Shown: piece after piece, positions 29,239-61,739 of the stretch
Layout: every line of letters begins with the position of its first letter
Numbering within the stretch: the stretch's first letter is position 1
Source of the DNA: Luscinia megarhynchos
Lineage: Eukaryota > Chordata > Aves > Passeriformes > Turdidae
Length of the DNA: 64,000 nucleotides
Reading direction: 5' to 3'
Assembly: GCA_034336665.1 (NCBI GenBank)
Contig: CM067592.1
Location: 52,194,473-52,258,472, forward strand
Translations under genes and position numbers: made by a program
Notes under the pieces: generated by a model
Seen by the model: only the letters and a program-made list of their open reading frames with translations
Databases searched by the model: none
Told to the model about the DNA's origin: nothing

Positions 29239-30548
29239 TCATCTATGGAGCAAAACAAAGTTCTCTAGTTTTTCAGGGATATGCCCTGCATAGCGTATGT
29301 TATGATTCACTATTACACGAGCAGCAAGACACTGCAAAGTAGTATGATTTATGGGCTGGATTAAATTCTTTGCTATTTCCTTCTCATCCAGCAAATCACT
29401 AGCTGTTTGTTTACATGAGTTTGTGGCATCAAAATGTGAACCTGACTTGATAAGAAGATTCATGATGTCTGGATGGTTGTTCAGTGCAGCAATGTGCAAT
29501 GGACTGTTGTTATCGGAGTCTCTGACATTTACATCAGCACCACATTCCACCAGGATCGCAGTAACTTGTAGAGAGGGGAATTTACAAACTGGGTAGCGAC
29601 CGACACATGTAGTATTATTGTCGACAGCAAGGTGAAGTGGACTGAAGTTATTCTTTCCTCTAGGCTGAAGTTTAAGAAACTTGTAAATAGTTTGTTTCTT
29701 AAAATGTTCCTGTTCTGAGCTGCAAGGTACTTTCTCCAACAAGCAAATTAAATGCAAAATGATGGAAAGGGCTTTGTTCAGCTGTATTGGATCAGGAAGA
29801 CATTGGGTTTGCTTCATGGCCCGTTCTATTTCAAGAACGCTTTTGCACAGTATACCCATTAGATCATCAAAAGTGACAGTAGTGCCTAGCAGGCCTTTTG
29901 CCCTATCCTGAAGCATGAAGGAGAAAAGTTCAGCAAATGACAGCAAACTGCTGGCTGTCATCGGGCTCAGCGGATCAAGATTGCTCTGCTGCATGTCCAA
30001 AGCATACTTCCATAAATTGATGCAACGCTTGAAGTTTCCGGAATCTGCATACACAGCACCTCTGTATCTAATATAGTAGGATGTGTCTGGGTGAGAAGGG
30101 CCAAGAATACGTTCTCTAATTAGTAATGCTTGCATTCTCATTTCATCTGGGTCTGCAATAAGATTTTCTAGCTCTTCTGAGCTGTTTACCTCTTTAGCAT
30201 AATCATAAGCCATAATCAGTGTTTGTGGCACAGGTTTGCTGAGGATATTAGTCCTATCGCTGTATCTCATTTCCATAGCTCTTTTCCAGTATTTCAAAGC
30301 ACCAAGCAGATCTCTCTTTTTGTCCACAAATGTTGCTCCTAGAAGTTCCAGGGCATTTATGCGCTCAGCCTTACTGGTCTGTACATGCTGGGTCAGAAAG
30401 TCCACTATATTTGTGTGGCCTGTCACACTGGCTGACAGAAGGGGAGTCATTCCATAACCATCCTTTTCCATTTTAGCACAATACTTCAGAAGCATCTTCA
30501 TGATCTCCAAACTTCCAGATTCTGCACAGTCATGTAGTGCTGTATTTC
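29239..30548 (-). CDS. FEM1C: FEM1C coding exon 2 (rest of residue 182 to 617, stop)
   Basis: Large last coding exon of FEM1C. The acceptor is ttatcttgcag at 30549-30559; reading resumes as ga-AAT-ACA, giving Gly-Asn-Thr-Ala-Leu-His-Asp, the expected start of ankyrin repeat 6. Order: ankyrin repeats 6-7 (about 181-242), a first TPR-like helix pair (about 245-279, ERINALELLGATFVDKKRDL), a second (about 338-371, YAD-GNFKRCINLWKYALDM), the region used for CUL2 binding in this family, and C-terminal ankyrin repeats 8-9 (about 481-556). The end is HIPEKLENFVLLHR then TGA. The two exons give 1854 nt, or 617 codons plus stop, equal to human FEM1C. No frameshift or premature stop is present, so the gene looks functional. 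Reading past the acceptor adds nine intronic codons (MCNCVCYLA) that are not part of the protein. Confidence 0.97.
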
Positions 30549-30869
30549 CTGCAAGATAACAAACACAATTACACAAATTGTATCAAATTACAGTCCAAAT
30601 CTCACCATGCTACTAGTTAAAAAAAAGGGTAAAGAACCCCCAAATATTAATGGTTTTCAACTAGCTTTTGCTTCTCCATTTAGGTACTATGAAAGCAAGG
30701 CTGCCAAGCAGTTATAAAAAAAAATGTTTGATATTATTATCTGAAAAAATTACACAGATTTAAGAAAAACCCACAAACCAGAATTAAAATTGAATTCTTC
30801 ACTACATAGAAGTACAAGAATTGACAATTCCTTTGTATCAAAAGTCAAGCAAACAGGACAGGAGATCAG

Positions 30870-40500: not shown

Positions 40501-40670
40501 TAATCCACGATAAAAAGAGTAAATTAAAAACTAAAAACATAGCTATAAACACTTTATATCTCATGCTTTATGAGAACAGACAAATACTTTTTTTAATGTC
40601 ATACTCCTGAAGAAGTAAATGAGTGACTTTACCTCTATTTACCACAATGAAAGTGAAAAAACTAACTCAC

Positions 40671-41214
40671 CTTTAACACTTTTTCTGTTCACATCAGCTC
40701 CTTTTTCAAGCAAATACTGAGCAATCTCTTTGTGGCCTTTGTAACATGAGATCATCAAGCACGTATGCCCGTGACGGTTTGATACTTCCAGGTCTGCTTT
40801 GTGCTCCACTAGGTATTTGACTATTTCCAGGTGACCATCAAAACAGGCAGCTCTAAGCGGCGTTGAGTTTGTCAGCGTTGTGTTGTTGACAGACGCACCA
40901 TGATCCAAGAGACACTGAACAACCTTCAAGTGGCCGGCGGCTGATGCTGCCCACAACGGCGGAGCCCCCTCGATGGTCTCACCATCAAAATTCACCGAGC
41001 CACCAACCTCTATCGAGGCAGAGCAATGGTCCAACAAGTATTCCACCATGTCGAGGTGACCGTAGCGGGCTGCCATCAGAAGTGGCGTGGCACCATTGGT
41101 TTTTTCTGACATCAGCTGGGCCACCTCTTCCCTTGTTTTGCTCGCCAGTAGCTTGGAAAGGAGCCGCAGCTTGCCATCACGAGCTGCGTTGAAGACTGCT
41201 GTCTTTAGATCCAT
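40671..41214 (-). CDS. FEM1C: FEM1C coding exon 1 (residues 1-181 and first base of codon 182)
   Basis: First coding exon of FEM1C, the substrate receptor of a CUL2-RING ubiquitin ligase that recognises C-terminal Arg degrons. It starts MDLKTAVFNAARDGKL, as I recall for vertebrate FEM1C. It encodes ankyrin repeats 1-5 (about residues 2-31, 40-70, 82-111, 115-145, 149-178), with typical G-TPL and GH-EIV/KYL motifs. Residues reported to line the degron pocket are present: Asp77, Ser117 and Asp126. The exon ends in ...aaag followed by the donor gtgagt (complement of 40665-40670), splitting a Gly codon after its first base. The exon is 544 nt, so phase 1. The ATG sits in the context actaaATGg. 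FEM1A and FEM1B are paralogues, but the near-identity I recall in repeats 2-5 is with FEM1C. The boundary is firm because the next exon rejoins in frame. Confidence 0.97.
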
Positions 41215-41398: not shown

Positions 41399-41930
41399 CT
41401 GCAAAAGGAGAATTCTCGATGTTTTCACCTCCTACTTCGCAAACAAGCAACCGCATTGTATTTTCCCACAGCTACACCCGAACAAGTCGCTGTTGTGGCG
41501 CGCCGGCGTCCAGCTGCATTCCTCGGGACTCTCCCGGGCCGCGCGGAGCCCCCGAGGAAAGCCCCGGGGAGGAGGGGCCGATCCCACCACCGCGTTATCC
41601 ACACCAGGCACACAACGATCCTCTTCTCCCTCGTTCCGCCGTGAGCTGCACCCCCGACGCGTTTCGGGGCGTACCCCAAGTACAGAGCCCCCGGCTCCCG
41701 CCAGAAGACCCGCAGCCACGCGTCTCCAGGGCAGCCGGGCGGGGAAGGCGACGGCCGCACTCCGGCCAAGCCCCGGGGGAGAGCCCGAGCCATCCGCTCG
41801 CCTCACGACCGGACCCGCTCCGTCCAGAGCCCGGCGGCCCCATCCCCCTCCCTCCTTCCCTCACGGCACCCCACACCCGCGACCGCCGCGCTCGGAGCCG
41901 GCCGGAAAGGCCCGGCAGACCGCGCGCTAC

Positions 41931-42040
41931 CTTCCCGGGGCGCTCCGGGCCGCCTCCGCTCCCCCCGCTGCCGCTCTCAGAGGGACGCGCCCGCCGCCGC
42001 TGCCCGCGCTCCGTCCGGCGCCTCCATGACAGCCGGGCCC
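41931..42040 (-). other. FEM1C: probable FEM1C untranslated first exon
   Basis: Within the CpG island a minus-strand donor ccgggaag/gtagcg is found with its last exon base at 41931. Paired with the acceptor at 41399 it makes an intron of about 530 bases. The 5' limit is a guess, set just downstream of the GC and CCAAT boxes at 42065-42095. A short upstream frame (41977-42027) falls inside. Confidence 0.4.
41977..42027 (-). other. upstream open reading frame in FEM1C leader (16 codons)
   Basis: On the minus strand ATG GAG GCG opens a 16-codon frame that ends in TGA at 41977-41979, before the proposed donor at 41931. The base after the ATG is G, which is favourable. It matters only if transcription starts upstream of 42027. 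Confidence 0.4.
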
Positions 42041-42064
42041 CGCCGCCAGGGCCGGCCCTGCGCA

Positions 42065-42095
42065 GGGGGCGGGGCGGCCCCGCCGCGGCCAATCA
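42065..42095 (-). promoter_or_regulatory. GC box plus CCAAT box pair
   Basis: The motif gggggcgggg (SP-family site) is followed 14 bases later by ccaatca (NF-Y site). On the minus strand the CCAAT box reads as tgattgg and lies upstream of the GC box, a usual spacing ahead of a start site near 42.03 kb. Confidence 0.6.
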
Positions 42096-42226
42096 GAGCC
42101 ACGCCCCGCGCGCCCGGGGCGGGACTACGCCGCCGCCCGAGGGCGCCGGGCGGGCGCCGAGCGCGCCGCTAGGGGGCGCCGGGGAGCAGCAGCGCGGGGC
42201 CCTGTGGTGAGGGCGCGGAGGTGCCG

Positions 42227-42286
42227 CAGGATCCCGCAGAATCCCACAGGATCCCACAGGATCCCAGAGAATCCCACAGGATCCCA
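42227..42286 (+). repeat. decamer tandem array, 6 units
   Basis: Six adjacent 10-base units of consensus caggatccca (variants caggatcccg, cagaatccca, gagaatccca) between the CpG island and the CR1 copy. It sits upstream of FEM1C. Confidence 0.93.
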
Positions 42287-42297
42287 CGGAGGTATTT

Positions 42298-42850
42298 TGG
42301 GAATGCCCTCACAGGCACACCGTGGGCTTTGTACGAACACATCCGTGCTGTATACCGCCAGTGCTGCGTCCCGTCCTGTGCTCCGCAGCACAGGGGAGAC
42401 AAGGAGCTGCCGAAGAGGGTCGGCGGAGACCACAAGGATGGTTTGGGATCAGGAGCAGCTCCCTTACGAGGACAGACTGCGGGAGCTGGGCTTGTGTAGT
42501 CGGGAGAAGAGAAGACATGCGTACAATACGTCAAAGGCGGGTGCCGGGAGGATGGTGCCAGACTCTTTTCAGTGGTGCTCAGCAGTAATACGAGGACTAA
42601 TAGCCATAAACTACAACACAGGAAACTCCACCTCAGCCTGAGGAAGAACTGTACACTGAGGGTGGCAGAGCACTGGAACAGGCTGCTTTGGAGGTTGTGT
42701 AGTCTCCCACTCTGAAGATACTCAAAACGCACCTGGATGCATTCCTGTGTCACCTGCTCCAGGGGACCCTGCCTTGGCGGGGGATTAGGACTGGCGCATC
42801 TCCAGGGATCCCTTCCATCCTTACTTATTTTATGATTCTGCGATTCTGTG
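42298..42850 (+). mobile_element. CR1 LINE 3' fragment next to FEM1C promoter
   Basis: Sense CR1: 'cttacgaggacagactgcgg' then 'gagctgggcttgtgtagtcg', 'gcagagcactggaacaggct', and the tail ttatgattctgcgattctgtg. It begins about 100 bases beyond the CpG island and points away from FEM1C. Confidence 0.88.
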
Positions 42851-45800
42851 CATATATGCCTCATGAATTTAAAAATTTGGGATTAAAAGTCCAATTTTTG
42901 CAGCACAGGGGATGCTCTGGCTCTTGACAATGTTTCTGTTTGGTTCAAAACTTGCTTTTCTTGAGATTGCACATGGTTTGCTACAGGCTTAGGATGTGGC
43001 ATTTATTGTGTTCCTGTGGTAATAGAAAGGGGGAAAAATCCTGAAAGAGCTGCACCTGAGCAAGGGAGTGTAAATTCTGTCACAACCAAGTCTTCAAGCC
43101 TCAGAAAGGAGCCACATGCAGAAACAAACTCAAGTCTTATAAGCATTAATGGGCAGTAGTTCGGACATAAATCTGAAATGCAATCTGGTAGCTTCCCCAC
43201 TTCAAAACAAAGGCGGGGGGAAGGGAGAGAGAGAGAAAATAGTTCAATTTGTAATTTTATGTACGAAAGCAATGTTATCAGAGCCTGGGTGGCCCTTTGT
43301 CCCTTTGTACTCAGTGCTGGCAAGATGGTGCACTGGCTGCTCGCTATTTTGTTTGCATGACTCAGAAGAAGAAAGATCATAAGAAACTGATAGGAATTTA
43401 GAGTAAAACCATTAAAATTTTTAAGGAAGTGGTGGTATTAATTTATGTACAGGTGTTAAAAGACCTAACAGTGTGAAAACACTAAATTAAAAGAAAGTGA
43501 GGTAAAGAAGAATAAATAGCATTTTCAAGAAATGTCATTGGAATGGAGGACTTATTTGAAGAAATTTGCCAGGTGTAGTCAACAGCAGTTGGAAACAAAA
43601 TGAACAGATGAAAAAGCATACTTAGCATCAAAAATAATAGGCTGGTAGGGAGGCTCTGCCAAGCCAGAAAAATAATTTGAAGGTTATGGGAGCTACTCAA
43701 TCTGTGCTGGAGGGGACATGGAGATGATAACCTGACTGACCTTCCCCTTCAGTCGCTGGAGTTCTCAGGGCAGGCAGTAAGCAGTGCAGCCAGCACTGAC
43801 AGGCTTGCAAACTACAGGGCAGTGGGTGCAGTAATGCATCTGTGGGTGTCACACACAGCCTGTCCTCACCCCCTCCCAGCTCTGAGTTAGACCAAGGTCC
43901 TGGGACAGGGTCCAGGGGAGGAATATTGGTCAAGTAGGCCACAGAGGAATAGGAATGACTTCTGTAGAGTTGTAATGCCTGGACCATGGTAGACGATAAG
44001 CCCTTGCAGGCAACCACAAGGCACAGTGATGGAGAGTTCAGACACTGCATGTCAGACCACTGGGCCTCTTCTTTATATAAAAATATCTTACTCCTCTGGC
44101 AAATAATAAGTCTGCCTTGATATTTCTGAAATCTACCTTAGAGTAACTAGGTGTAGTCAGCTATTAATTAAGTAGAGAAATAAATTATTAAAGAAAATTT
44201 TTACAGGAGTTGCACTTCTCTAAGTGCCCTGCTGCCATTTTTCTCTTTCTTATCTCATTATACATACATCTTCAATAATCATTTAATCATATTTATATTT
44301 TAAGACTGTAGTTCTCATGATGTAAGTGGACTTCGGGAAGCCTGACAATGTGGCTGCCTCCTGACTGCTGCTGTATGAGTTTCACACTTTCATACTGCCT
44401 TGTGGAGGAAGCACTTGCTTGGCAATACCTGGCTCTGGGGGCACTGAAAATCAGCACGGTATGGCCCCAGCCTGCACTTGCCTGCTGCAGTTACTGACTT
44501 GCTCTCAGAATAAACCTAAGCCCTACTTCCCAGAGTTAAAAACAGATACTTTGACCTAGTGTACCAGAAGCACCATCAAAAACAAAATATACCAATCCAT
44601 GCTTTAAGGTTTCAACTTCCATCCTTCATATGTAGTCAATCTTTCATGGGCACACAGTGCCAGTGACAATTTATTTGTCTTACCTCCCCCTCTCTTTGGC
44701 TCATGCTGGATGTAGGAAAAATGGCCCCATGTTCATGGGGAAGAGGGGTGTTGATGTCAGGCTGGGATCTTTGATGGTGCCACAAACACAATGCATGCCA
44801 TTGAAAAGAGCAAGTTAGTTTTGATGCTTGCTCAGTTTTGCAGTTTCCTGCCTCTTGTTTTGAAAGCTATGAATGGAGAATGGTGTTAAGTGAAATAATA
44901 GTGTTGCAAATACATAGTTCTCCCCTCATGCAATTCTTGTGCTCACAGCTTTTCACAGTAGACAGCAGAAGGGATTTGTCACACACGAGGGACTAACTTG
45001 CTACCCATCTTGTAGACACCTCTGGTTTTGTGTGGAGCAGTGGTCCCCTCAGTGTCTGGGTCATAGCTCTGTAGCACTGTGTCTCATACACCAGTGCTGT
45101 ACTGTTGCATTCACATCTCTCATTCCAGATTGAAGAATTGATACTCATTTTGCGTACAAATGGCAATACCACAATGAAAAAGTCACTGGTCACTAGACAG
45201 CTCTTGACAGTGCTTGGTCTGAACCAGCTGAAGGGTTTTCAAGATTGCCATTGATAATGTTTTGGAAGTCTGATTCTGACTTCAGCAAGAGATGTGGCTG
45301 TAAAGTGCTGCATTCAATTTCAACCCTTAACTTCCTTATCCCTATGACACAAGGTGTAGAGGTTTCTTCATCCTCAAGGCAGATTATGCTCAGCAATACA
45401 GCAAAGAGAAATCTAATCTAATCCACATCTCAGTTTTTAACTTTGGTACTAGAAGGCATATATATTTGTGCATTAATACAGTGATTTCTTCAAATTCTTT
45501 ATCCCACTTTTGTTCATGCAACAGTTGGTATCCCCAGCATGACTGTATTTCTCTCAGTCCCCAAGCTAACTCAGAAAAATCTGTGTTACACCTTGCAAGT
45601 TGGAGTGCTTGTCCACACCAACTGCTCTATTTATGTCTGCAGTGTGTGTCTTCCCTAAACTGGCACCCAATTGCCTACACGTGTCAGGTCAGGAAGGCAA
45701 TATAGGATGTTACATCAAGTAGGCTTCCAAAAAGGGGAGCTAGAGCAAATGGCAAGCTGAGCAGACGTGTAAAGCGTTTGTGCAACTGCCTACATGTGAG

Positions 45801-48800
45801 CTAGGGCTAAATTATTCAATAAATTGAAACATCTGTTAAAGCATAGCCTGAATCCTAGGTCTTCCCTGAGGTACTGTGACTCCTGGGCAACACGGGAGGG
45901 ATGGCAAGCTCCTGTCAGCTGCTGCCAGACTCATCTTAGTAAAGCCCCTTCCTGGTTGCCAGTACTTGCCCACACCTCTGCCAGCAGTAGTATCACATGC
46001 TACATGCAATCACTGAAGCTTGCTCTTAACCATGAATATTTATGTATTTTCATATAAAGCAGAAGAGCTTTGTGAGGGAAGAGACAGCTGTGCTGGAAAT
46101 GTCTGTTGCCAAGGGCTGAGATACAGGGGGGAGACCCCTGCACTGGCTGGCCAGGAATACAAGCCTGCACCACTGGGCCAGGGCCAGGATAAGGGCTCAA
46201 GGAACCTTCTCACCTTGCATGAGTCTGTGCAATGTCTGTGTGTGCTGCATCACAAAATACGCCTCTCTCCCTCAGGACAGCAAGCACCATGTGCCTTAGA
46301 CACACCCTCAGCTTGGGGAGATTGTACACATGGTGTAATTGCATATAGAGGCTTTGTCTCCTAAACTGTGTTTGCTCACATTAGGTGAGCAAGACATCGA
46401 ATATCTAGATTTTCAGCTTCTGATCTAGAAACCCAGCCTTTATATGGAATTGCACTCTGGACAAGCCAGATGAAATGTTTCTTCCTTTAACTGGAAACTC
46501 TTCTTTCTATCATCCTGACAATAAAATTCTGGAAGCTGAATCGTTAGTTTGTTATGTAAACAAACAGATTCATGCAGATTGATGTTAAAATCACAATAAA
46601 TTGTGGAGATGTGGCTGGAGATGTGAGTCAGTAAGATCTGAAAAGTTTTGGCATGTTTGCTGAACCCCTGCAAGCTGTGAGCTTTCCTTGTCCCTTGGTG
46701 TTTAACTCACAGCTGACAGCAGAAACTGTCTGCAGTCTGTATCTGGATACAGGCTGAGACAGAGAAGACTGGTTTCAGGAGGTGCCTCTTTTCTTATGAG
46801 GAAATAAACATCTCTACCTATTCACCCTGGGGTGCAAGGGTGACATTTTGTTTCTAGGGGGGTTTTGTATCCATAACAGTATTTGGTTCTCTAATTTCTT
46901 CTGTACTATGAAAACAGGGAAATAAGAAGATAATCTAAGTTTGTTTACAATATGTAAAAAGTTTTACAAATAATACTAATTTTATAGCTATTAAATCATA
47001 CATTTTTATAGCTGTATGCCTGCAGGTATATATTTTCATATAACAGAAATAATTTATAAATTAACTTCCCTCAAATACACACAGTAATTTAGTAATGGAA
47101 ATATGCTACAGGACACAGATGATATTCCATATGATGCAAGGATTTCTAACAGGCATAAATAAGGCAATTTTAAATGAATTCAGAGGGTTTATGCATTCGA
47201 ATTAACCTACATCATTTTAGAGTTTGATGTACAAGTTGCAAAATTTCCTTTCCTCTCTCTCTGGTGTTATTTCAAGAGGAGGTTGAAAGTACATTGACAG
47301 AGATTGCAATTTACAGATATTCAACACTTACATCTTTAAAATCAGCAGCAGTGGTGCACCTAGCTTTTAAGGCAGTATTTGCAAAGCCTGTGAATGCTGA
47401 ATTTCTCTCCCAGAAGACAAAATTTTCTCCCTCTCCTGACAATCCCTGGCATGCATAATAAAAGACCTGCATGTCTGAATTCAAATACCCTAAAATATTC
47501 CTGCTAGCCAGTGCATGACCGTACATGGCCTCTTCAGTATGACATTGTGGTAGAAACTGCTCTAGGCTCCATAGCAGATCTTGAGCACAAAGACTTGTAC
47601 ATTTACAAGGTAGGATTTAAATGTAGCAAAATCAAGTCCCAGAGTAAATTTCACTACTAAAGCAACATTTGCAAAATACGAGATAGTCTCATATTCACCA
47701 GAACAGTGGATTAAAGCTGTCAGTTGTTTAAGACAGAGATTTTTAAAATGGCTTAATTTAACAAATTAGCTAGCTTAGCTCATAGTACTTTAACTGTGCC
47801 ACTATTAGGTAAAGCCAGGTGTGTTCATTTTGCTACTTAGGCTGGGATTGAACAGTGCCCTGCCATGGTGTGATCTTCTACCAGAGACATGTTGGGGATG
47901 TACTGTGATTTTGTTTACAATTGATTGGTTTGACTAATAGTTATGCTTCTGGTGTCCCTCAGTCTGTACTCATTCTGATACATTAAAGATGTGTAACATT
48001 CAGAACAATCTACTAACAGTCTTCTTGCTGCCCTTTTTTGAAGCTGCACAAATTATCTGCAGCTATTTTTGTTTCTTAGTTCCCAAGCCAAGGAAAAGAT
48101 GGGCCTAACAGTGTTGATAAACAGAATTTAACTATTGAATTTGTAAGACTTCCACAGTGAGTGGGATAAAAAATATATTACATCCTCTGCTTTCCACGTA
48201 TAGAACAGTTATTTCACCTACAATGAAACCTACTAGGCTAATCTTGATACTTGGGAATATGCATACTTAACTCCCAAGCATTTGCACAGACCTCTGCTAA
48301 TTCATTGCAGAGAAAAACTACAGAGCTGATCAACTAGTGAGCAGTCTGGGTTAATGGAATGTTCTAAAGGCTCCAGGGAGTTCAAAAGAGTTGGAAGCAA
48401 ATATCCGTGTGGTAAAGCTACTTTTCCTCAAATATATGGCAGTAGAAAGGGGTGCCCAGGGGTAATTGGATGAAAACTCCGTTTATCCTAAGCCCCAGCC
48501 AGCACAATCAGAGAGAGCAAACAAAACAGAGTATGAGTGCTAGGCAACGGTTTGGACTGCGGCACGCCACACGCTGCAGCTCTCACAGAAGCTGCTGAGT
48601 GGCTGGGAGCAGGCGGGTAGTATTTCAGTCCTTGGCTTCAGATGCGAGTGCTGTAAGCATCCCTACATTTCAGTCATCTGCAGCTGTACCTGTCACTGGA
48701 AGTCTGAAGAGGCATTGAGCTGTGCAGACTAGCCATGACCTTTTACACTGCCAGATATATTTATATATCCTGAAACCATTCTGTTTGTCAGAAATAATCC

Positions 48801-51800
48801 CAGTTCCCAGTGGTTTCTGGCCACGTGGGTGTGTGTGTGAGTATACATGCACGCTGTCACATGCTTGCATGCTTCGGAAAGTTCTGCTGTCATTTTCTGC
48901 CTTCTAACAATTTCCATAAGCAGCTGGCCAGAGTCAAGTGTGTGGCCTTTTTATGAAGAGTTCTCTGGAGATAGCTTCCTACTAAATCATGACTAAGGAC
49001 TCTTCTGTTAGTCTATCTCTCTTTGCTGAAGAAAGACAGGGCATGGACTAACAGGAAAGCTATTTCCAAACCCGGCTTAAGCCTACATTAGGAGGCAAAG
49101 GTTTTTTTCAAATGACATAGGTTCTCAGTTCCCTTGTGCAGAAGTGTCTCTGCCTGTCTGGTGATTTTTTGGTAACACTAGTCTCATTTTGGCAGTAGTT
49201 CTTTTCTTTGTGGAGCTACTGCTGATCCCAGCCATGCCCTTGGCATTGTCCCACATCCTCCTCTCCAGACAACCAGTTCTGCTTGAGGAAAGTCCACAAG
49301 CTCTTGGCACTTGCCTTTGATAATGTGTTTCACATTTCTGCATTGGTCTACTAGAAACACTCATGTAACCAGTTCCTTCCTTATCTAGGCTGCCATTTCC
49401 ATTGCTGCAGGGTGTAAGCATCTGCTCCATCTTCTTCTGCAAGCTGGATGCATTTTACTGGGGTTTCTTGCAAGCAGGCCTCAGAAGATGCAGTTAGAAC
49501 AGAGTAGAGATGTTTGCTTAGCTTTTAATGCTAACTGTGCCGACCTCGTTAAAGATGTCCTCCACAGATTGCCTTAGCTTATTTAAGAATAATAAATCCC
49601 TGGGATATATGCCATTAGTACCTTGGGTACCCAGGTACTGTCCTTGGTACCTTGGGTATCTCTGAACTCTGGCTATCAGTCAGGGAGTGCAGGCAGACCA
49701 TCCCAGCAGTGAAATCTGAGGAGAAGCTGCCTTATCTCTTCTTTGGGTTCTGCTTTTTTCTCTCCCTTTTAGTGGTTACACCAAATGAGATTGATGGTTT
49801 TCTGAGATGGAAAAGCTGCTGTTTTTACTTTGCCCTTTCTCTAAGGGATAAATACACTGTGGGGCGAGATGGCAGCTGCAAGATTTCACATTTTCCACAG
49901 GTCAAGTTGATAGAGAAACATGTAAAATGAATGCCAGAAATCTTGGAATAGGATTCTACTTTTAAGAGAAAAAAAAATCCCAGAAAATGGCTTATTCCAG
50001 TTAATATGTCTCAGCATTTTTGCAGAAATCCTTATAGGCCTTCAGGCAGAACAAAGAAAAATTTAAGATCACAAACATTCCGCTGCAGAGAAAGCCAAAT
50101 AAACCATTACACATATGGAATGTGTTAGCTCTGCTTTCCATTGTACAAGGTCTATAAGACTTTTAAATAAAATACGTGTAGCCTTCTGTGACATGAAGAC
50201 CATTGTCTTCATTTAAAAGCTGAGCATAGCAAAGAGTGGGGACATCTCTGAACACCTAATCTGCTTTGGGGAGAGGGGGCTGAGACTGATGCCAGAGAGC
50301 CTTTTTCCAGTGTGTTGCCTTGCTGGCCCAGCTATTTTGGCCTGACCACTACCTTTCCTCATCTGCTTGGGCACTTTGGATGTCCAACCATTAATAAAGT
50401 ATCTGCTTCAAACAGATACTTCTGTTGAACCAGGTGACCCCATGCCTTGCCTGTACCACCCAGGCCGGTTTCCTTTCACTCAAGTCCACATGATGCTCAG
50501 TATTCGCCAAGGTCTCTCCCCATCTCTGACCCTTTGTGTACTCCTGCCAGGATACAAAGGGGACAGGTGTTATCAAGGTAACATTTGGAACCTCCAGAGG
50601 AGGAGACAATGCAGAGTGTGCTGGTTGCAGAGTACTCTGAGATGCAGGATAAAAGACTCCTTTGCAAATGCAATAGTCATGGCAACGGTTTTCTTCAGCT
50701 TTTCCTGCAGAGCAGTAATTCAGCTTTAGATATAATTCCATATATTTGATTTGTAGTCAAAGCTCTGGAACTCATTTTCTTTTACCATTCCAAATGCAGG
50801 GGAGGGTTGCTCAGTTTGCTTTTCCAGTACTAGCATCAATGACTGTGAGAGCAGGATCAGGTCACAGCTTGATGAAATGCTCATGTCTTAGACTTTTCTC
50901 ATAGAAGGATACAAATATCCACCCTTTGCCAGAGTATCCCTGCATACCCTTTTGAGTGCTGCATTCTGCTGCAGTGCTCAGGAAACTCTGCACGTAGCAG
51001 GAAGACAGCAGCCTGGGAGAGGTACGGCAGAGCTGCAGTCAGCAGCGAGTACAGCCTGAGCCAAGTAACAGGAGCTTCATTTGGCTGGAGTTGCAGCAGT
51101 AGCCAGCCAGCAGGTCTGCACACTAAGTGTGCTGATAAGTGTGGCAGGAAGATGGGCAGTGGTAAGTAGTGGCAAGGAACACATCTCAGCATTGAAATTA
51201 GATGGTTATTTTTATTTGCAGGCTCTCAGTGTTCAAGAGAGCTGTCTGTGTGGTTCTTGAAGGAACTACGCAGAGATATGAGCAGACATTAACACTTGTG
51301 AGAACACTTTTTCTAACTAGCTATGGAAAGAGAATAACATTAAAGTGTAAATGACCTGAGGACTTTAACTGCTGAACATTGGCTGAGAGCTACGCAGTAG
51401 GATACTACCTGCAATATGGGCTTCTCACCAGCAAAGCAACTGGTACCTTCTGGGATCACACAGAAGGGATGATTTTATAGACGTGGAAGAAATAACTAGC
51501 AACAACAATACAACAGCTCAGGAGCCCAAGAACAGGAGTCTCTGGGTTGCTGAGGTTTGGTCCAAGCCGGTTTTTCCTTTTGTAAACATTCATCTGCATA
51601 AGATTTCAGATTTTTTTTTCTGCATCTACCCCTATTTCTCTTAGACATCTTCCCATTTTATTTTCCTTCTGTTTTCTTTTCATAATCTCCCCATTGGTGT
51701 AATTTATAGGCTGTATGCTATAGACATGTTGTCTTTTATCTACCATTTTAAATATCACAGAAAAAGGTACGTTTACGCTGTGAGAAAAAATAAAAAAAGG

Positions 51801-53508
51801 TTATAAATACTGTAGACAGCACTTCAATGAATCAGCACTGGCAGAAGAATGCCAAAAGCCTCCCACAGCTGAAACTCTCCACCCTTGCTTACAATGCTGT
51901 GGCACTCCTCAAGGAGCTTGGGTGGCTCTCGCCACCCCACTGTGGCAAAGGAAGCACAGAAGAGCACAGAAGAGCACAGAAGAGCAGAGGCCCAGCCCCA
52001 TCCTGCTTATGGTGACCTTGCACTGCTGCCTGTTATTGACAGATACCACTCACAGCCTTGGGGACACTGGGAGTGATTAATTGAGAAACCCTCTTGCTCA
52101 GGTGTTTCTGCCCTCCCAGGCACCCAGACTTGCTGCATTGAGGATGTTTTGCAAGGGCTGTGGACACCCAGCAGCCTCTTGACTCCATAAACTTACTTTC
52201 TGGCAGCACAAGGGCACAGCCTGCATGTGGCTGAAGCACATGGTGTGTCCAAAAACGATCCTTGGCCTAAATTTTTGAGACAGAGGTACACAGCTGTTAT
52301 TCTCCTCATTTGCAGAAAAAGGAACAGTCAGAGCACAAAGCATTGTACCAAAAATTACACCACATGCAAGTACTGTCACAGCTAGCACACTAGCTGCCTC
52401 CTACAAACATAATGTTTCACCACATGAGAAACATAGATACTGATCCAGACACTAAGGTCCCTTTTACTGTCTTTTCAGCAAGGAACTAATTATTTCTCAG
52501 AGGTAACTGTCCTTATTTTGGATCAGGCAGTTTTCAGTATTCAGAAAATAATAAATAATTAAATATTTATTTTAATTACTACCAGTGCTATTTTAGTAAT
52601 TACATTTCGTATCACCAATAGAAAACAATAGTGATACCTAATGCAAGCTGGCTTACTGACTCACTGCTAGCAGTCCTATCAAGTACTGGGGAAGAAAAGA
52701 ACACTGAAGAACTGTCTTAAATCTATTCAAATATCCTTGAGAGCTAGCATACACAAAATGAAAAAAAAAAAATCAAATGGATGTTGTTTCGTTGTTTCTG
52801 TTGTTCTCCTTTTCCAGCCTCGGATCAAAACACTTCCATCGCAGACAAACACAGACTATCTCACTATTCTCTACAACATAATTGTTGTCTAATATTTTTC
52901 TGTAAAGAATGTGCCAAGCAAAGTTTAGTTACAATGATCTCAGAAAATGTTTATTGATATTAAAAAAACACATCAGCAAATGCCTTTTTTTTAGAAAAAC
53001 ACCTTCAAGTGTAACAAAAACAAAATAGCTTTGAAAGGTCTGTTTCCCAAAGCAGAAGGCATTTCATAGAATGCCTTCTATAATGCATTGATTTCATTTA
53101 GATGACCAGAGCTCCTCTTCTATTAACATTTTTCAGTATCAGCTATGAGATGTGAGAAGCTGCACATTGTTAATAATAAACAATACATGTCTGCCAGAGC
53201 TCACAAGACAAAGCTGAACACCGCTAAGGTTTCAGTTTGGCTTAGAGGCAACTTGTGCCTCTAAGCAGACACAGTGACAGTCATGCCTTCGTGTATGGCA
53301 AGCATTCACCAGTACTTAATTAAAACGCCTAAACAGAGAACTATACCACTAGTTTTGTCATGTGAAGGGTTTCCCTTCCTTCATAAAAGAATGGCAATGA
53401 ATATAACTTCTGCTTTATTCTAAACATGGTCTGCTTAAAGAGTTTTCCACCATGACAAGTACTACAGTTTCTGTTTCCTTCTTTCCTCCCTCTATATCTC
53501 TGTATCTC
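42851..53508. other. no gene seen between FEM1C promoter and TICAM2 relic
   Basis: 10.7 kb with only short frames. A CpG-bearing patch lies at about 48.54-48.66 kb, containing ctaggcaacgg, but it is too small to call a promoter. A 120-codon frame at 50367-50729 has no homology I recognise. Confidence 0.65.
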
Positions 53509-54090
53509 TCACTTTTGTGTGTATGTAGAGTCACGGAAAATTTTCTCCCCTTGTTTTTTTTGCAAGGTCAGGGCTATTCTCTTACAGTGCATTAACAGTC
53601 TGCAAAACAAAAATGTTTCTGGGTAAGCAGGCTGCTTAATGGCCTCAGAAGTGTTGTAATTTATGCAGTTAAAAGCATTGACAAGGGAGGTGAAGGACTG
53701 AAACACATAACAGGATTAATTCAGAAAATTTGGTTGATAGCATAACAGTCCATGCTGAGCCATTCACAATATTTAAGTTTTCAAAGACAGGCTCATTACA
53801 AGGTGGCACTGCAAAGATTATTCCAGACTTAGAACAAAATTTATTCTGCAGCTGAATGTTGATGGCTTCATCTGCATCATTGTCAGCAGGCAGAATCTCA
53901 GACTTAGAACAAGCAGCCATATTGTCATTACTGCTGCAAACTTCTGAAATGCTGTTTATAGGCTCTGTAAATTCAGCAGAGGAGCCCAATAGTTTGTTAA
54001 TTGGCTTGGAGTCTCCCAGGCCTGTACTAAGTCATTAGCCTCCTGCTGCTCTCTACTGAGAGTGGTATATCTGGAGTTACTACTTCCCAT
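53509..54090 (-). pseudogene. TICAM2: TICAM2 (TRAM) pseudogene, single-exon coding relic
   Basis: Relic of TICAM2, the TIR-domain adaptor that bridges TLR4 to TRIF on endosomes. Three frames read in order. Frame A (54090-54031) starts MGSSNSRY, which fits an N-myristoylation signal like the one at the start of TRAM. Frame B (54031-53731) gives DADEAI, SGIIFAVPPC and VNGSAWTVML, matching DTDEAL, PGIIFAEMPC and VNGSAWTILL of human TRAM; the Pro-Cys of the BB loop is kept. Frame C (53730-53509) gives NFLN-stop-SCYVFQSFTSLVNAFN against NFLRDTWCNFQFYTSLMNSVN, then KIFRDSTY against RIFQESVY. Defects: a frameshift near 54030, another near 53731, TAA at 53716-53718, and an early stop at 53509-53511. 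The position next to FEM1C, the strand and the single-exon form match human TICAM2. The N-terminal part is less certain than the TIR part. Human sequences are from memory. Confidence 0.88.
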
Positions 54091-54114
54091 TACAAAAAGG
54101 ACACACACATAATC

Positions 54115-54652
54115 CCACTCTGTGGGGCAGCCTCACCTTGCATATTGTGTGCAGTTTTGGTCACTGCAATAAAAGACACTGAGCTGTCAGAGAGTGTCCA
54201 AAGGAGGCCGTGAGGGTGTGAAGGGTTTGGAGGGGAAGCCGTGTGAGCAGTGGCTGAGGGCACTTGGTCTGCTCAGCCTGGAGGAGACTGAGGGGAGACC
54301 TCACTGCAGTCACAGCTTCTTGTGAGGGAGCAGGAGAGGCAGGCACTGATCCCTGCTCTGTGGGGACAGGGACAGGACCCAGCAGAATTACCTGAATTTG
54401 TATCAGGGAAGGATAGGTTGGATATCAGGGAAAGTTTCTTCACCCAGATGGTGGTTGGGCAGAGGAACCGGCTCCCCAGGAAAGTAGTCACAGCACCAGC
54501 CTGACAGAGCATCAGAGGTGTTGGACAACACTCTCAGGCACATGGCATAATTCTTGGGAATGGAGCTGTGCAGTGCCAGGAGTTGTATTTGATGATCCTT
54601 GTGGGTCCCTTCTAAATCAGCTTATTCTGTGATTCTGTAATTCTGTGATAAA
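54115..54652 (+). mobile_element. CR1 LINE 3' fragment abutting the TICAM2 relic
   Basis: Sense CR1: gtctgctcagcctggaggag, ttggatatcagggaaagttt, 'ggttgggcagaggaaccggc', ending attctgtgattctgtaattctg. Its left end is about 25 bases upstream of the relic's presumed ATG and it runs opposite to the relic. Confidence 0.9.
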
Positions 54653-54685
54653 AATGTTTTCATAGTGACTAATGTCTGCTTTCTC

Positions 54686-54790
54686 CATTCATTAAAAAAA
54701 AAAAAACCAAGGCAAAACCCAACCAAATAATAAACAAATAAAAACAAAAAAGAGAAGTAAGAGAAAGGAAAATACAGAAGAGCTGCTACT
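54686..54790 (+). repeat. A-rich low-complexity patch
   Basis: An A13 run followed by aaccaaataataaacaaataaaaacaa-type words, about 100 bases, just past the CR1 copy. Confidence 0.8.
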
Positions 54791-57700
54791 GGGACAGGGT
54801 GGAAACAGGAATTTTTTGCTTTTCTTGGAACAACCAGCTTGTTTGACTGGGTGAAAGAAATGCAGAAATAAAAGAAATCAGAAATGCTGAAAGAAAAACT
54901 GATATATATATTTCCCAGACTGTTTCGCTGGTGAACTCATTGCTGAGCACTCTGGCCTGCAACAAGGACAAGTACTTACCACAAAGACCCATCAGCCACC
55001 ACTAGTAGAAAAGTCCATCCAGGGCAGCAGAGCTCTTCTTGTATTCGTGTGATGCAAAGGGAGGTAATTTGCTGGAGATGTTGGCATAGAGATGGCAGGA
55101 TGGAAGCTTATACATCCCCTGTGTGATCTGTGCTCTCGCTCAAATGAAATCAGTGACACTCAGACAGAGGGTTGGTCCTACTGCTCAACACTATGAAGCC
55201 ACTCAGCTCAGAAGGGGTTGATACAAGAAGCACCACCTGCAGAAACAAATGGTCAGCTTTTCACCCTCTCATTCCTGTTTATTTCTTTAATCATTGTTTG
55301 CACAGCTCAAGCTGAACTTATAGGAATCTCCTCCCTTTCTGCAAAGACGTTGGAGGAGCTGGGGTTTTTAATTCTGCTAAGGCTGCTTGCAGATTTGAGC
55401 AAACCCTAGAGGGAGCAGAAGGGGTCCTGCTGCTTTCAGCAGCTGCCAAACCAATTTAGTTGTAGCATGAAAGTGCACCCAAGGCTCACACCCTCCAGGG
55501 AATTCATACAACTGAACTTGCCTTTAAATTAATCTGAACTCCAGTGCTCTTGTACAAGTTACAGAGGACAAGCGAGGCAGAACCAGGTCTTGTATATGAG
55601 TGGTGCCTACAAAGGAAAGAGCCTTTGCCTGCCATAACACCACAACTTCCATTCTCTGTCTTTCCCCACCACTCTTTCAATCTCTTTCCTCTTAAAATGC
55701 AGGTTCATGCACAGCATCCTGGCTAAGGAGAAATCAGCAGGGTCACTGGTGGGATCACTGTTTTTCCCCTTCACCAGCCAGAGAAATTTCTGACAGTTTT
55801 CTTCTGTATCTGGTACTATCTGAATACCTTCCTGTGGTCTTGATGCTCTCTCAGCACCTCCTGCTCTGAGAAGCCTGCCAAGGTCTTCCACAACTAGGTC
55901 TTGGTCTGACCCAAGGCTTTTCTTTTTTTGTATACAAGGTTAAGCTGGCATTAATGTGTTCAAATCTAAGCATAGAACAGGTGGCAGGATTCATCCACCA
56001 CTTTGTGTTTTCCCACAATTCTAGCCTTGTGCTAGAACAGTGTGCTCCAGTCTTTAAACATTAGTTTCATTTTATCAGTAGAGCTCCAGTTTTCCAATTA
56101 ATGAGTAAAGAGCCAGCAATGATGTTTGCTCAGAGAGCAAGAGCAGCTTGTCCTGCACTAACACAAAACCCACACAGACCTTCCCTTTCCACCTCAATTT
56201 TATCAGGCCATTTTTCTCATTAAGTGAAAATCTGCTGTGAATGTTGTGTTTTACTGTAATCTCAAAAATATGGGCAGCAGAACTAATTGTCTCCAGAGAT
56301 AGGGGGCAAAACACTGCAGGCCCTTTGGGGATAAAAATAATTACCTGTATTGAAACCAATCAAGTTACTATGTTTTTTAATAAAGCATATTCAGGCCAGA
56401 ATAATTCAATAAATACTGCAATAAACATGTCTTTAAGGCTATGTGGTGATCTGGTTGTGTAGCGGGACACATGAAGGAGTTGGCTCTGGATATTAAAAGA
56501 ATGATGGATTTGAAAGAAAGTGCTGCCCTTTGGACATCAGAGCCTGTGTTATGTGTAATGAGGCCCGCAGTAGGAAGCTGACAGCATGAACAGTGATATA
56601 TATTACACATGGAAACAAAGACATAGTGTAGCTGTTCACTTCTTACATACGTCTAGTCCTTTGCAAAACCATGAAAAGGCAGGTGTGGGATTCATGCCTT
56701 CTACACAGCATCCCCAGAGCAGTGCGTGCTGTTCATCCGTCCACAGGATATATTTTCGAATGTTTCACAGAAATTTTGGCTTATTTATTTTATTTGAAAG
56801 AAAACAGAAAGAAAAAAGTGCAATTCAGAGGTTTGCTTTTACAGTAAGGACAAACTAACAGCAAGTTAAGTGCAGCAGGCAGTAATTATAGTAAGGCACA
56901 GACCTCCTCTTCTAATGATTATTTCTATTCCCATGTGACTTAATATAGGGCCAGGCATGCAGTTTCTGTGCTTATTTGCTGCCCTCTCTTGGCAACATAA
57001 CCAGCCTCTGGGAGAGAAAACTGAAGCTTCTGTCAAGAAGAGCAAAGAATCAAAGCAAAGTCATTCAGAGAAAGAGTCTTGTGCCAAAGAAAAATGAAAT
57101 ATTTGCATATTTTTACACACTGGAGAAAGAATTAATCTCATCTAAGAAATTAGATTTCCTCTCTTCTATATGGTTCATTGACTCAATGTGAGCAAGAAGG
57201 AGAATTGGTTCTGGTGATGAGCCTGTTACTGAGAAACATCATCCTTTCCTACACATTATTGTAAGCATCTACCAGATACCTTTCCCTTCTTCCTCCTCAA
57301 AAGCAAGTTTCTAAAGAAGAAAGATTTTTTCTTTTCAGTCCCTAGCACAATATTTGAGCATACTTCCAAGACCTCAATTGCTTCCATATAGATTCCCATC
57401 TGCAATAGACGTATATGTATCTTTTGTTATCAGTGCCAAAAAGGCTAAAAAGCAACTGGATCCTGTGAATAGCAGTAATCCTCTATAGCAAATATGAAAC
57501 TTGCTTTTCATGACAAGTGTTCTTCTATCTCTAGTTTCAAGAAGAGGAATCCATGTCATTCAGGATCCTCTTTGCAGATAACAAAATACAAGCCACATAA
57601 CAGTTGATTATCAAATCTCTGTGCTATGAGACCAATCTGCTATGAACCAATGTGTTCACAGACCATGCACACAGGTCATTCATATTCTAGAAGGCTGTGA

Positions 57701-58633
57701 GCAAACAGCTTTCTGTTTACCCAGCGAGAAATACTTTTCTACTTGCAAATCTTCTGTGTCTGTCATGTTCAATATCTCATTTATGCATAAGAAAACACAT
57801 ACTACCTTTTCAGATAATGAAGGTTCTCCCATGGAGGAAATATTCCTCATGTTCTTTCTGGAAAGTAGTGGTTTCAACCTTAAGAACATCCTTCTGCTAA
57901 CAAGATCATGTTGACACAAACCCTTAACCAGGGAGCACAAACAGCGTTCTCCAGTCAGCTGCCTTCCTCCAGCATCCTGAGCACCCAGAGAGACCATCAT
58001 TTGAAATAACAGTGCCAAAGAGGCTTGTCAACAGATCCTCTTGGCTTGGTTCCCCATGAAAAGAATATGTATCATATTTTAGGCTGAACATCTCTGAAAA
58101 ATGAAGAAGATGGGTAATTAATTAACATGGAGAATACATAACTTTTAAGGTTTCTCAGAGGATTCCCTTGGAATTCCTCACTACAAAGCATTTTTGCCAA
58201 TGGCAGCTTTCTTTGGGGAATCTTTGCTCTTGTACCCTGCTGAGCAGCAGCCACAGCACTAGCACTGCCCAAGCAGTTGGCACTGGGACATACAGTTCTT
58301 AGGGGGGAAGCCACCCCATCTCCCTCCTTGGCTCACTCTGTCTCCAGATGTGACATCACTCTTCTCCACTGCTCCACGACACAAACTATGTATTATAGAG
58401 CAGAGGGACACCAGGGGCATTGCCAGAGAGACCTGATGTCCCTTCTCTGAGAGGGACATCCCACAGCAAATCTCAGATCCCTGTGGAGATGTGAGTGCTG
58501 AGTCTTAGGCCATACCTCCCCATGACAAGGCCAGCAGCAGCACCATCGAGTGCCTTGCAGAGGGGAACCTGGGCACATGCTGGGAGCAGGAGGCCATGGC
58601 CTGGGGAGGAGGCCCTCTCAGGCATGGCAGTGA
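54791..58633. other. no gene seen upstream of TICAM2 relic
   Basis: This is where an upstream non-coding exon or promoter of TICAM2 would be expected. I see neither a CpG island nor a clear splice donor. Short frames only. Confidence 0.6.
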
Positions 58634-58670
58634 CAGCACCCTACCTAGCCTCCCCTCCCCTCCCCTGAAA

Positions 58671-58705
<35 letters not shown>

Positions 58706-58800
58706 CCCCCACCCCCGCCTCTCTCCTTCCCCTCGCCCTCTCCCTCCTCCTTCTTCTTTCCTTTTTTACTTCTTCCTTATTTTTAATTTTTTTCCCACGT
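58634..58800 (+). repeat. long polypyrimidine tract
   Basis: Nearly all C and T: (CCCCT)n, then (CT)n broken by one TTT, a C run, CCTT blocks and T runs. It can be copied or aligned only with difficulty and gives false open frames rich in Ser, Leu and Pro. Confidence 0.9.
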
Positions 58801-59183
58801 ATCCCACACTAGCTACCTCATTCTAGAGACACATCTGGTAAGCTTCTCTGTTTTCATTTCAGGTGCCACCACAGGCATGCAGAAAACATGCAAGAGATGC
58901 AGGTGGGCAGATAATGGTTTCTGCAAGGGTTGGGTGGTTCTGTGCTGCCGTGAACCTTCTGAAAACCGTTTTGCAGTTACTACAACCACGCTCATCTGTT
59001 TTGGTTATGTTCCTCCGGGTCAGTGAGTGTTAGTGACAGAGATCTTGCCCCTGTGAACTGCCACCAGATGGCAAAGTACTCATCAGCTGCGCTCCCGAGC
59101 CTGCTCGCCAGCACCACAGGCTGGAGATGAGGCTGCAGGAGAGCCATGCCCAAAAGATAGGCTGGGAATAAATCCCCATAGAC

Positions 59184-59675
59184 CAATGTCTGTAGAGCAG
59201 GTATTTGTGTATTGCAGTGCTGATGGTGAGGGGGCTGTCTCCACCTAACTCACCCTTTGTTAAGTGCCGTGGTGTCTCTATACAGTAAGTGTTGCTTAGT
59301 GTTATTACGTCACTATAACATCATCATTTATGCACCAGAACTAGTTTATGTAGTACGGTCTCATGGTTATTAGTTCTTTTGCACTGCACTTGTGCCTCCC
59401 CAATTTGGGGGTCGTCAGGGGTTTTTGATGAAGGCTTCCAAGGTCTTCTTCACATCTGAACTTTTCAACTTTGTCTTCAGAGCGTGTGTGATTACAATGT
59501 TCCTTGGTCTGTCCGGCTCTAACCAACCTAAATTCTTTATTTTGTGGCTAATTGGCTTTGCATTTGCCAATTTCTCCTTAGTACTACATTTATCTATCTC
59601 TAAAGCTATCCACTTGGTAAGTGGGGTTTTTTGTGCTTTTTTTTTGTCTATTCAGCATTAAGCTAACTACATACT
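59184..59675 (-). mobile_element. possible LTR-like repeat
   Basis: The stretch from tgtagagcaggtatttgtgt through ttcttgcaccg-type short blocks to aactaggtttt-like T runs has the feel of a bird LTR in reverse: a gagcaggtatttgtgtattgc block that resembles an antisense LTR end, and several CpG-bearing motifs (gtcgtcagg, gtacggtctc, gtccggctct) that stand out from the flanks. I recall related sequence from songbird genomes, without certainty. No termini or target duplications could be fixed. Confidence 0.35.
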
Positions 59676-59689
59676 AACCACTACATTGT

Positions 59690-59865
59690 ATAGAAAGTTA
59701 TTTATATCAAGTTATATAGGTATACAAAGTTATTATTCAGTTTATATAGGTATAACAGGCTATGATTTAGGTTATATTGATATCAAGTTATACAGATAAA
59801 TCAAGTTATAACTAGAGCTATATAAGCACCTTATAACTTTGACCCAAGTTATATAGGCATCAAGA
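59690..59865 (+). repeat. degenerate TA-rich minisatellite
   Basis: The word (c)aagttatataggtat(c) or close variants recurs about eight times: agttatttatatc, aagttatataggtata, agtttatataggtata, aggttatattgatatc, aagttatacagataaatc, aagttataac, aagttatataggcatc. Unit length is about 16-24 bases and irregular. Confidence 0.75.
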
Positions 59866-61739
59866 GGAGAAAGTGGCAGTCCAAGGCAGAGCATGCAACT
59901 GCTCCCATCAGGTATGAAACTCTCCAAAATGTCCTTGCCACTCACTGGGCCTTACCTTCAAGCCTGACTTCTCACAGATCTGATTGATTTTGGCAGTCTG
60001 CTTCACAGGTCTCCCTAGGAAGGAGTTTTCTCAGCTCTTGTATAATTAAAGCAGTGATCCATTAAGACTATCTCCTGACTTTTTAGCATTCCAAATGGAA
60101 GATGTGTTACAGCTGCAGTAGTTCAAATTGAACAAACTGACACTGTACATAAAACTGAGTTGCAGACAGTTCCCACTTAGTGACATCATTATACAGTAAC
60201 CAGTAATGTAGAATACATTGATCAAGGTAATGTTATATTTGCAATGTATTTGAGTGGTCCCTGGGTGTTTTCAGCTCTCTGCTGGCAGCAATCTTAAGGG
60301 ATTTCAGAGTTGCCATGAAATGCTAGTTAATCCTGGATGTCTTGCTGACCATCAGAATGAAAAATTACTTTGACTGATATAACTGTACAGAAGTGAATAT
60401 TTTCTTTTTGAGGGTATGTATCTTAGAAGAAGAAAGTACTGCACAACTGAAGAACTTTAAAAATGAAGTTTCAATAATTTTTCTTCATTTTGGAAAAAGA
60501 GTTGAGTCCTGGCAATACTTCTCTCAGCCTAGAAAGATCAGTAACCACTGTACTTATACATGAGACTAGGCTTTCCAGGTTCTTTGGTCTAAGGATGCTG
60601 ACTGGATCAAATACAACTCCTCCCCTCTCTAACAAGACAGGCAGGGTTTTTTCTAAATTGGAATTAAGAATTAACACTGGATGATTGCATAGCAGTAAGC
60701 CTAAAGCCCTTTCAGATATACCCCATTCTGCCCAGGTCTGTAATACTCATGGGAATGTCATCCAGAAGGAGGGAGTGTTGATAGCTGACGAGTGATGTTT
60801 CCTGGGAAGGAGATCTTTGCCCTTCAAAACCTGTGGAGCTTCACGTGGAATTTGAGCTCTTGAATTCCTTTCTCTTTTGGACTCATGCCGAGTTTCCAGA
60901 GGTTGTAGGCTTTGATTGAACTGCATACTGAAGTATAAATAAATGCTTTTTTAAAAAATTTTCTATCTGGCCATATTTCTGGGTTTCAACTTAAATGTGT
61001 ATCTCAAAGATATGATGTCTCTATAACAGACAGGTATCTACTAATATCTGCTAATAAAATATCTGCTAATTTCATTCTTGTAAATTCTGTAACTCTTCCC
61101 TGTTATTCTAATATGCAAGTTGTCATAATAAAATCCAGATTCATGTTAACTAACATTTGGATGATCCTTTGTTTTGGTTTTGCATTTCTTAATGTCCTTG
61201 TAGCTATTTTCTACATGCATCACAGAGAACTCTGCCTAATGCTCGCATCAGCTCCACAGCCAACCTTTCTCATCTAGCAATGCCACTGAAAGGCCAAGAA
61301 ATGCAAATCTGCAAAGCACTGAATAATTTCAAAACCAGTGGGGAGGCTATTTTCGCAGCATCTTTACCACCCACATAGACATTAGCTAAGTTACACTTGA
61401 GAGAAACCTTTGCAAAAATTGTTATGATGACTACACAAACACCCATTTCTTTAACTCCCTTCATAATCTATCATAAACACTACAGGAGAAGAGATACAAG
61501 TTATAATCATGGGAAAAATATTCAATGTGATTGGCCTGTTGTTTCCTATCCTCAAGTGCTAAGCAACAGCTAGATGTAATGTGTAGCTCGTGGCCTCAAC
61601 ACTATTACCAGAACAAAAGCTGGATTCTCTCTGGCTGTTTGACCTTCCAGGTAAGCCCCTTTAAACATATGGGGGTGTTTTTCCTGTTGTTTTTAAAATC
61701 CCACATTTCCAAATAATGAATGATCTGGTGGTGATTTCT
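59866..61739. other. no gene seen
   Basis: AT-rich intergenic DNA with short frames only. TMED7, the next gene in human, is not found here or elsewhere in the window. Confidence 0.6.

Follow-up and report, generated by a model that had tools for sequence, protein, structure and literature searches.

The window, that is, the whole 64,000-nucleotide stretch of nightingale DNA analyzed here, carries the decayed single coding exon of TICAM2, the TRAM gene, about 12 kb upstream of the first coding exon of FEM1C and on the same strand (Table 1). Frameshift-aware alignment of this relic to emu TICAM2 gave 115 identical residues among 203 aligned and a score of 396; 40 dinucleotide shuffles reached at most 50, and 40 other stretches of the window at most 48. 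A sequence-only reading had placed TIR-domain homology on the minus strand between 53509 and 54090. All four peptides it quoted were found there, and the score lies far above the shuffles. The homology starts at the ATG at 54090, probably continues past 53509 to about 53465 and occupies two reading frames rather than the three proposed.

The surviving coding sequence is recognizable by structure. Searched alone against the PDB, the longest remaining open frame (106 aa) matched TRAM TIR structures with E = 5.7e-10, and a frame-joined reading of the relic did so across the TIR domain with E = 8.3e-22. The domain is nearest to TICAM2 and not to TICAM1 or the TLRs: all three PDB matches of the 106-aa frame and three out of four matches of the joined reading (the fourth at E 0.47) were TICAM2, as were the four entries carrying names among seven matches of a protein search. 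Neither the 106-aa frame nor the joined reading matched Pfam at E up to 10. The former start of the relic resembles those of gecko (MGSSNSKI) and emu (MGSTNSKP) TICAM2, and also MGSTNSRQ, all being of the N-myristoylation type, with myristoylation predicted; the start MGSTNS is found in emu, kiwi and crocodile TICAM2.

Relative to emu TICAM2, the reading of the relic is broken by at least four frame changes and by three in-frame stops, and no continuous frame crosses the TIR domain. Two residues are also missing where emu QNLLQ is reduced to QLQ, two single-residue gaps occur elsewhere, and the TRAF6-type motif PxExxP, present as PREKIP in emu, has no counterpart in the aligned relic. Placement of the lesions depends on the reference: some move by a few codons, and gecko TICAM2 as reference yields more frame changes. 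The frame changes near 54030 and 53731 and the TAA at 53718-53716 that the earlier reading had named are all present on the minus strand; its list was incomplete downstream of 53652, where more lesions exist.

Table 1 Features of the TICAM2 relic and its surroundings (positions in the window)
Feature	Position	Strand	Evidence
FEM1C large 3' exon, open frame, intact neighbor	29239..30576	-	PDB 'Protein fem-1 homolog C', E 1.5e-282
FEM1C first coding exon, open frame	40639..41214	-	Named by reading and alignment to W-type copy
TICAM2 (TRAM) unitary pseudogene, single coding exon	53465..54090	-	Frameshift-aware alignment to emu and chance control
TAG opposite Trp near emu TICAM2 C-terminus	53492..53494	-	Alignment
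TGA or frame change	53509..53511	-	Alignment
Frame change near A8 and G4 runs, ~53556	53548..53566	-	Reading and alignment
In-frame stop TAA, after NAL	53582..53584	-	Reading and alignment
Missing residues and frame change; emu PxExxP stretch (PREKIP) without full counterpart	53626..53652	-	Alignment
Longest surviving open frame, 106 aa, takes in first half of TIR domain	53669..53989	-	ORF and PDB search
In-frame stop TAA in resumed frame	53716..53718	-	Reading and alignment
2-base loss ~53731, common to P0001, P0002, P0061, P0126 and P0127	53726..53733	-	Alignment and comparison
Frame change, N-terminal part; bases vary with reference used	54027..54062	-	Alignments
Former start codon, reads MGSSNSRY	54088..54090	-	Comparison with gecko and emu starts
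CR1-like repeat fragment (CR1 presumed) upstream of old start	54190..54641		Two similar stretches, in L002 and L012, at 76% and 74% identity

FEM1C and the relic lie at 52.22-52.25 Mb of contig C36, on its minus strand. TMED7 (56586625-56591227, three exons matching at 75, 92 and 94%) and CDO1 (56539811-56546501) lie on the plus strand of the same contig, about 4.3 Mb away. Hence neither is the upstream neighbor of the relic, and TMED7 has no match within 150 kb upstream of the window. Fusion models of TMED7 with TICAM2 in Pogona (P0031) and panda (P0073) suggest that the two genes are adjacent in these species, and FEM1C and CDO1 have been reported as TICAM2 neighbors (PMC9440496). Set against the gap in the nightingale, both point to a rearrangement that split TMED7 from TICAM2 in the nightingale lineage. 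The syntenic placement made from the sequence alone was therefore correct on the FEM1C side, where the genes adjoin on one strand, but not on the TMED7 side (4.34 Mb off, opposite strand), and the FEM1C-TMED7 interval it proposed to align across birds does not exist here. Its central proposal, a TICAM2 gene that decayed in place, is borne out by alignment, lesions and FEM1C adjacency. Judged by eye, the repeat upstream of the old start may extend to 54110.

Three protein searches returned 7, 188 and 145 matches, of which the best 120 of 188 and the best 120 of 145 were considered. Among the matches listed, open TICAM2 genes with a TIR_2 domain came from emu, kiwi (Apteryx owenii), ostrich, tinamou (Eudromia, partial), Crocodylus porosus, turtles and squamates; a tuatara TICAM2 model was also listed, without a Pfam domain. 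By sequence, the palaeognath and crocodile genes are the same gene as the relic and share its TIR core, but they read through (the tinamou one in part), in contrast to the broken relic. Emu and kiwi share 208 of 218 residues, emu and crocodile 150 of 216. The split between birds and crocodiles is older than the splits within birds, and yet the relic is less similar to emu than the crocodile gene is, which counts in favor of a pseudogene. Emu and kiwi open with MGSTNSK, but the ostrich model P0012 has different residues at its N-terminus, perhaps because its start was mis-modelled.

Sixteen rows were of neognath type: the window, 12 fragments, an Apaloderma vittatum model labelled LOW QUALITY and two proteins of Calidris pygmaea. 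No galloanserine protein was found among the matches listed (best 120 of 188, best 120 of 145). At the site of the 2-base loss, the sequence in emu, kiwi, ostrich, tinamou, crocodile, three turtles, tuatara and gecko is LLTE, which occurs in 141 out of 156 proteins compared. The window and P0001, P0002, P0061, P0126 and P0127 instead read TKFSE or TKISE, a reading made by the loss of two bases from intact TE.F, and no other protein compared contained TK[FI]SE. Judging by their sequences and the tree, these five proteins are bird-like. Seven of the 16 neognath-type rows read through the site, six of them with the lesion and P0128 without it, whereas nine do not; in Calidris pygmaea and Apaloderma vittatum, the named neognaths compared, the gene models skip the site.

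The out-of-frame tails that follow the lesion also agree with the window, at 18/21 residues in P0127, 16/21 in P0061 and 13/19 in P0126. P0002 ends after seven residues of this tail, six of which agree, and agreement for P0001 is just 9/22 because it re-enters frame after eight residues. Outside the scored rows, P0123 ends in MLPTFS, which fits the lesion frame. Judged from the proteins, the DNA change would be identical in all lesion-bearing rows. For tree building, the lesion reading in these rows was removed or set to X; mapped on the resulting tree, the lesion required one change over the 17 rows scored. A second candidate for sharing, the N-terminal frame change, was dropped, as the shift in P0001 looks different by its letters; the 2-base loss was the one lesion counted as shared, and most others in the relic look private.

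Repeated independent deletions, or separate losses, could also have produced the TKFSE reading. A short A/T-rich run surrounds the site, and P0128, a member of another clade, keeps LLTENFL and, by reading, leaves frame after KYN, at another place, so independent loss seems to occur. Against this stand the same net change at the same place in every row reaching the site but P0128 and its single origin on the tree, which make recurrent deletion unlikely. Since the loss recurs in neognath-type rows and is absent from palaeognaths, TICAM2 was probably dead already in the common ancestor of the lesion-sharing birds, after the palaeognath split; the single event and this timing are what we infer from the distribution of the lesion. 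The idea that the defects could date the loss across birds thus begins to hold. The general statement that birds lost TRAM is too broad, because palaeognaths keep open reading frames.

Three CHD1-type matches fell one each on C36 (74.4 Mb, holding the window), C33 (4.8 Mb) and C14, with stops inside the C36 and C33 matches. FEM1C is present on C36 and, with an open frame, on C33 at 94% protein identity. Both lines of evidence point to C36 as the Z and C33 as the W chromosome. CHD1W is listed as a W gene in PMC4468903, which also gives FEM1CW of the collared flycatcher as a W gametolog whose partner lies at 53.79 Mb of the Z; FEM1C is on Z and W there, as it appears to be in the nightingale, where it lies at 52.22 Mb of C36. 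The same source describes Z 28.6-68.6 Mb of the flycatcher, which includes the FEM1C position, as a stratum in which recombination stopped before the chicken-flycatcher split, and its passages on FEM1CW do not treat TICAM2. The C33 copy of FEM1C, with its last exon open, lies at G000:C33:1920262-1934132 (L034, L041).

Searching the assembly with emu TICAM2 returned nine matches at E up to 1 among the best-scoring candidates: the relic (46%, with eight stops along a single frame), a piece of the relic that overlaps this match, TRIF on contig C31 and six weak ones. The 106-aa frame of the relic found a single match, the relic itself. An intact TICAM2 elsewhere in the same genome, named beforehand as the observation that would contradict decay, was accordingly not found with the emu query, and an intact copy in this assembly was rejected; the block is supported as a TICAM2 relic next to FEM1C, with no intact copy found in the assembly. 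The relic might still be a spare, with a working gene on the W or in an unassembled stretch. The assembly, at 1,235 contigs, may be incomplete, the emu search scored the best candidates only, FEM1C persists on the W-type contig, and a TRAM model of the passerine Neopelma is in use (PMC11788365). This explanation is nevertheless improbable: nothing besides the relic scored above TRIF, the relic adjoins its ancestral neighbor FEM1C, and on C33, across the 36 kb that precede the first FEM1C exon, ten queries gave chance-level TICAM2 matches (best E 0.24) and no DNA could be aligned with window positions 41518-60000.

Residual function of the 106-aa frame, or of RNA from the locus, is more doubtful again: the frame is the longest ORF at the locus and covers half a TIR domain, but it has lost residues, begins downstream of the old start and, like the joined reading, finds no Pfam domain, and other bird sequences keep different short frames. 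Least credible is an intact TICAM2 broken by assembly or base-calling errors. One of the frame changes does coincide with an A8/G4 run, and TRIF in the same assembly is frame-changed between TIR and RHIM near C/G runs. Indel errors, however, do not account for in-frame stops, missing residues or 57% identity to emu, and five sequences taken from other records show the 2-base loss as well, which rules out error or an assembly gap as the main cause and upholds the proposed loss by mutation.

We therefore favor, with a probability of roughly 0.84, a Z-linked TICAM2 unitary pseudogene that decayed in place beside FEM1C, carries a probably ancestral 2-base loss and can no longer give full TRAM. In mammals, TRAM recruits TRIF to TLR4. 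Intact TRAM is anchored to membranes by N-myristoylation, and its TIR domain links TLR4 to TRIF for interferon induction. Since no full TRAM can be made in the nightingale, TLR4 should signal through MyD88 only, unless another bridge from TLR4 to TRIF exists. With TRAM gone and TRIF kept, TLR3-TRIF signaling could persist while TLR4 would lose that arm.

In the tree, 13 rows formed one clade (support 100/100), in which the window belongs to a group of five rows (100/96), and P0125, P0128 and Calidris P0132 formed a second (98/96). Grouping of all 16 neognath-type rows was weak (79/75), and nine of these rows fill less than half of the columns. TICAM2 adjoining FEM1C should share the Z/W history of its neighbor, so two old clades would be expected, with one copy per species in each; Calidris, with one copy in each clade, fits. 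On sequence grounds, the two clades may thus be Z and W copies, P0125, P0128 and P0132 being candidate W copies. Calidris pygmaea P0131 and P0132 are two different TICAM2-derived models from one bird. Placing both in one clade was rejected (p-AU 0.0004), as was a duplication confined to Charadriiformes that joins P0131 with P0125, P0128 and P0132 (p-AU 0.009), the groups in both tests having been chosen after the tree was seen.

A wider scenario, which we put at slightly under even odds, is that neognath TRAM was lost as a sex-linked gene. Z and W would have stopped recombining around FEM1C, the Z copy would have taken the 2-base deletion, which would have become fixed before the radiation, and the W copy would have broken on its own, while palaeognaths kept the gene; the rearrangement between TMED7 and TICAM2 would be a possible first blow. 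If true, the TLR4-TRIF arm would mark an old split within living birds, present in ratites and tinamous and absent from the sampled neognath lineages.

That most birds lack TRAM, or lack a functional one, has already been published (PMC11788365, PMC9440496, PMC6043800). TRAM is given as absent in chicken and most birds in PMC7157566, PMC11788365 and PMC6043800, which concern the same gene and reach the same functional conclusion as we do; they report absence, whereas we describe a relic, its lesions, one shared lesion and a palaeognath exception. Chicken is described as having no TRAM and no interferon induction (PMC7157566, PMC6043800), although in some chicken studies LPS or bacteria elicited TRIF-type or interferon responses (PMC7157566, PMC3389315, PMC6870463), and in goose TICAM2 is listed with loss-of-function variants (PMC8249929). 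PMC11788365 modelled the TRAM TIR domain of the passerine Neopelma chrysocephalum (XP 027564076.1), stated to have neither myristoylation nor TRAF6 motifs; this model counts against loss in all neognaths, and the protein was absent among the matches listed. PMC9440496, which covers the avian locus of the relic and in its text treats Aves as one group, found avian TRAM orthologues, described models that lack a TIR and contain a reverse-transcriptase domain, and suspected that Aves have no functional TRAM. Apteryx, Struthio and Dromaius are not named in its main text, and palaeognath genes may be among its avian orthologues. The repeat just upstream of the relic may explain the reverse-transcriptase domain of such models. 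Among titles and abstract openings, mostly outside subscription journals, we found nothing that dealt with the relic or the shared deletion, nor with retention in palaeognaths or with Z/W copies. The question of the avian TLR4-TRIF arm had rested on failure to find TRAM in chicken; a relic whose lesion is shared replaces that absence with a datable mutation, the open palaeognath genes offer a contrast within birds for LPS-induced interferon, and sex linkage, if correct, would provide a context in which the loss may have proceeded in stages.

TRIF (TICAM1) on C31 has an open frame of 829 and is 34% identical to emu TICAM2. Its identity was confirmed by a TRIF-NTD match (E 2.2e-31) and a TIR_2 match (2.6e-4) that falls short of Pfam's own cut-off. 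Together, the emu search and this domain check indicate that the assembly keeps TRIF, with its RHIM out of frame, and not TRAM. At G000:C31:1725863-1729318 (L018), TRIF-NTD and TIR share one frame and the RHIM (IIQHASMVQIGNHNVM) lies in another; the change before the RHIM falls close to runs of C and G and may be either a base-run error or real, and it warns about trusting lesions near base runs. About 5 kb separate TRIF from a FEM1 paralog (66%) (G000:C31:1721431-1722873 and 1727363-1727818), an arrangement that mirrors the FEM1C-TICAM2 pair, and the two pairs are perhaps an old paralogous block.
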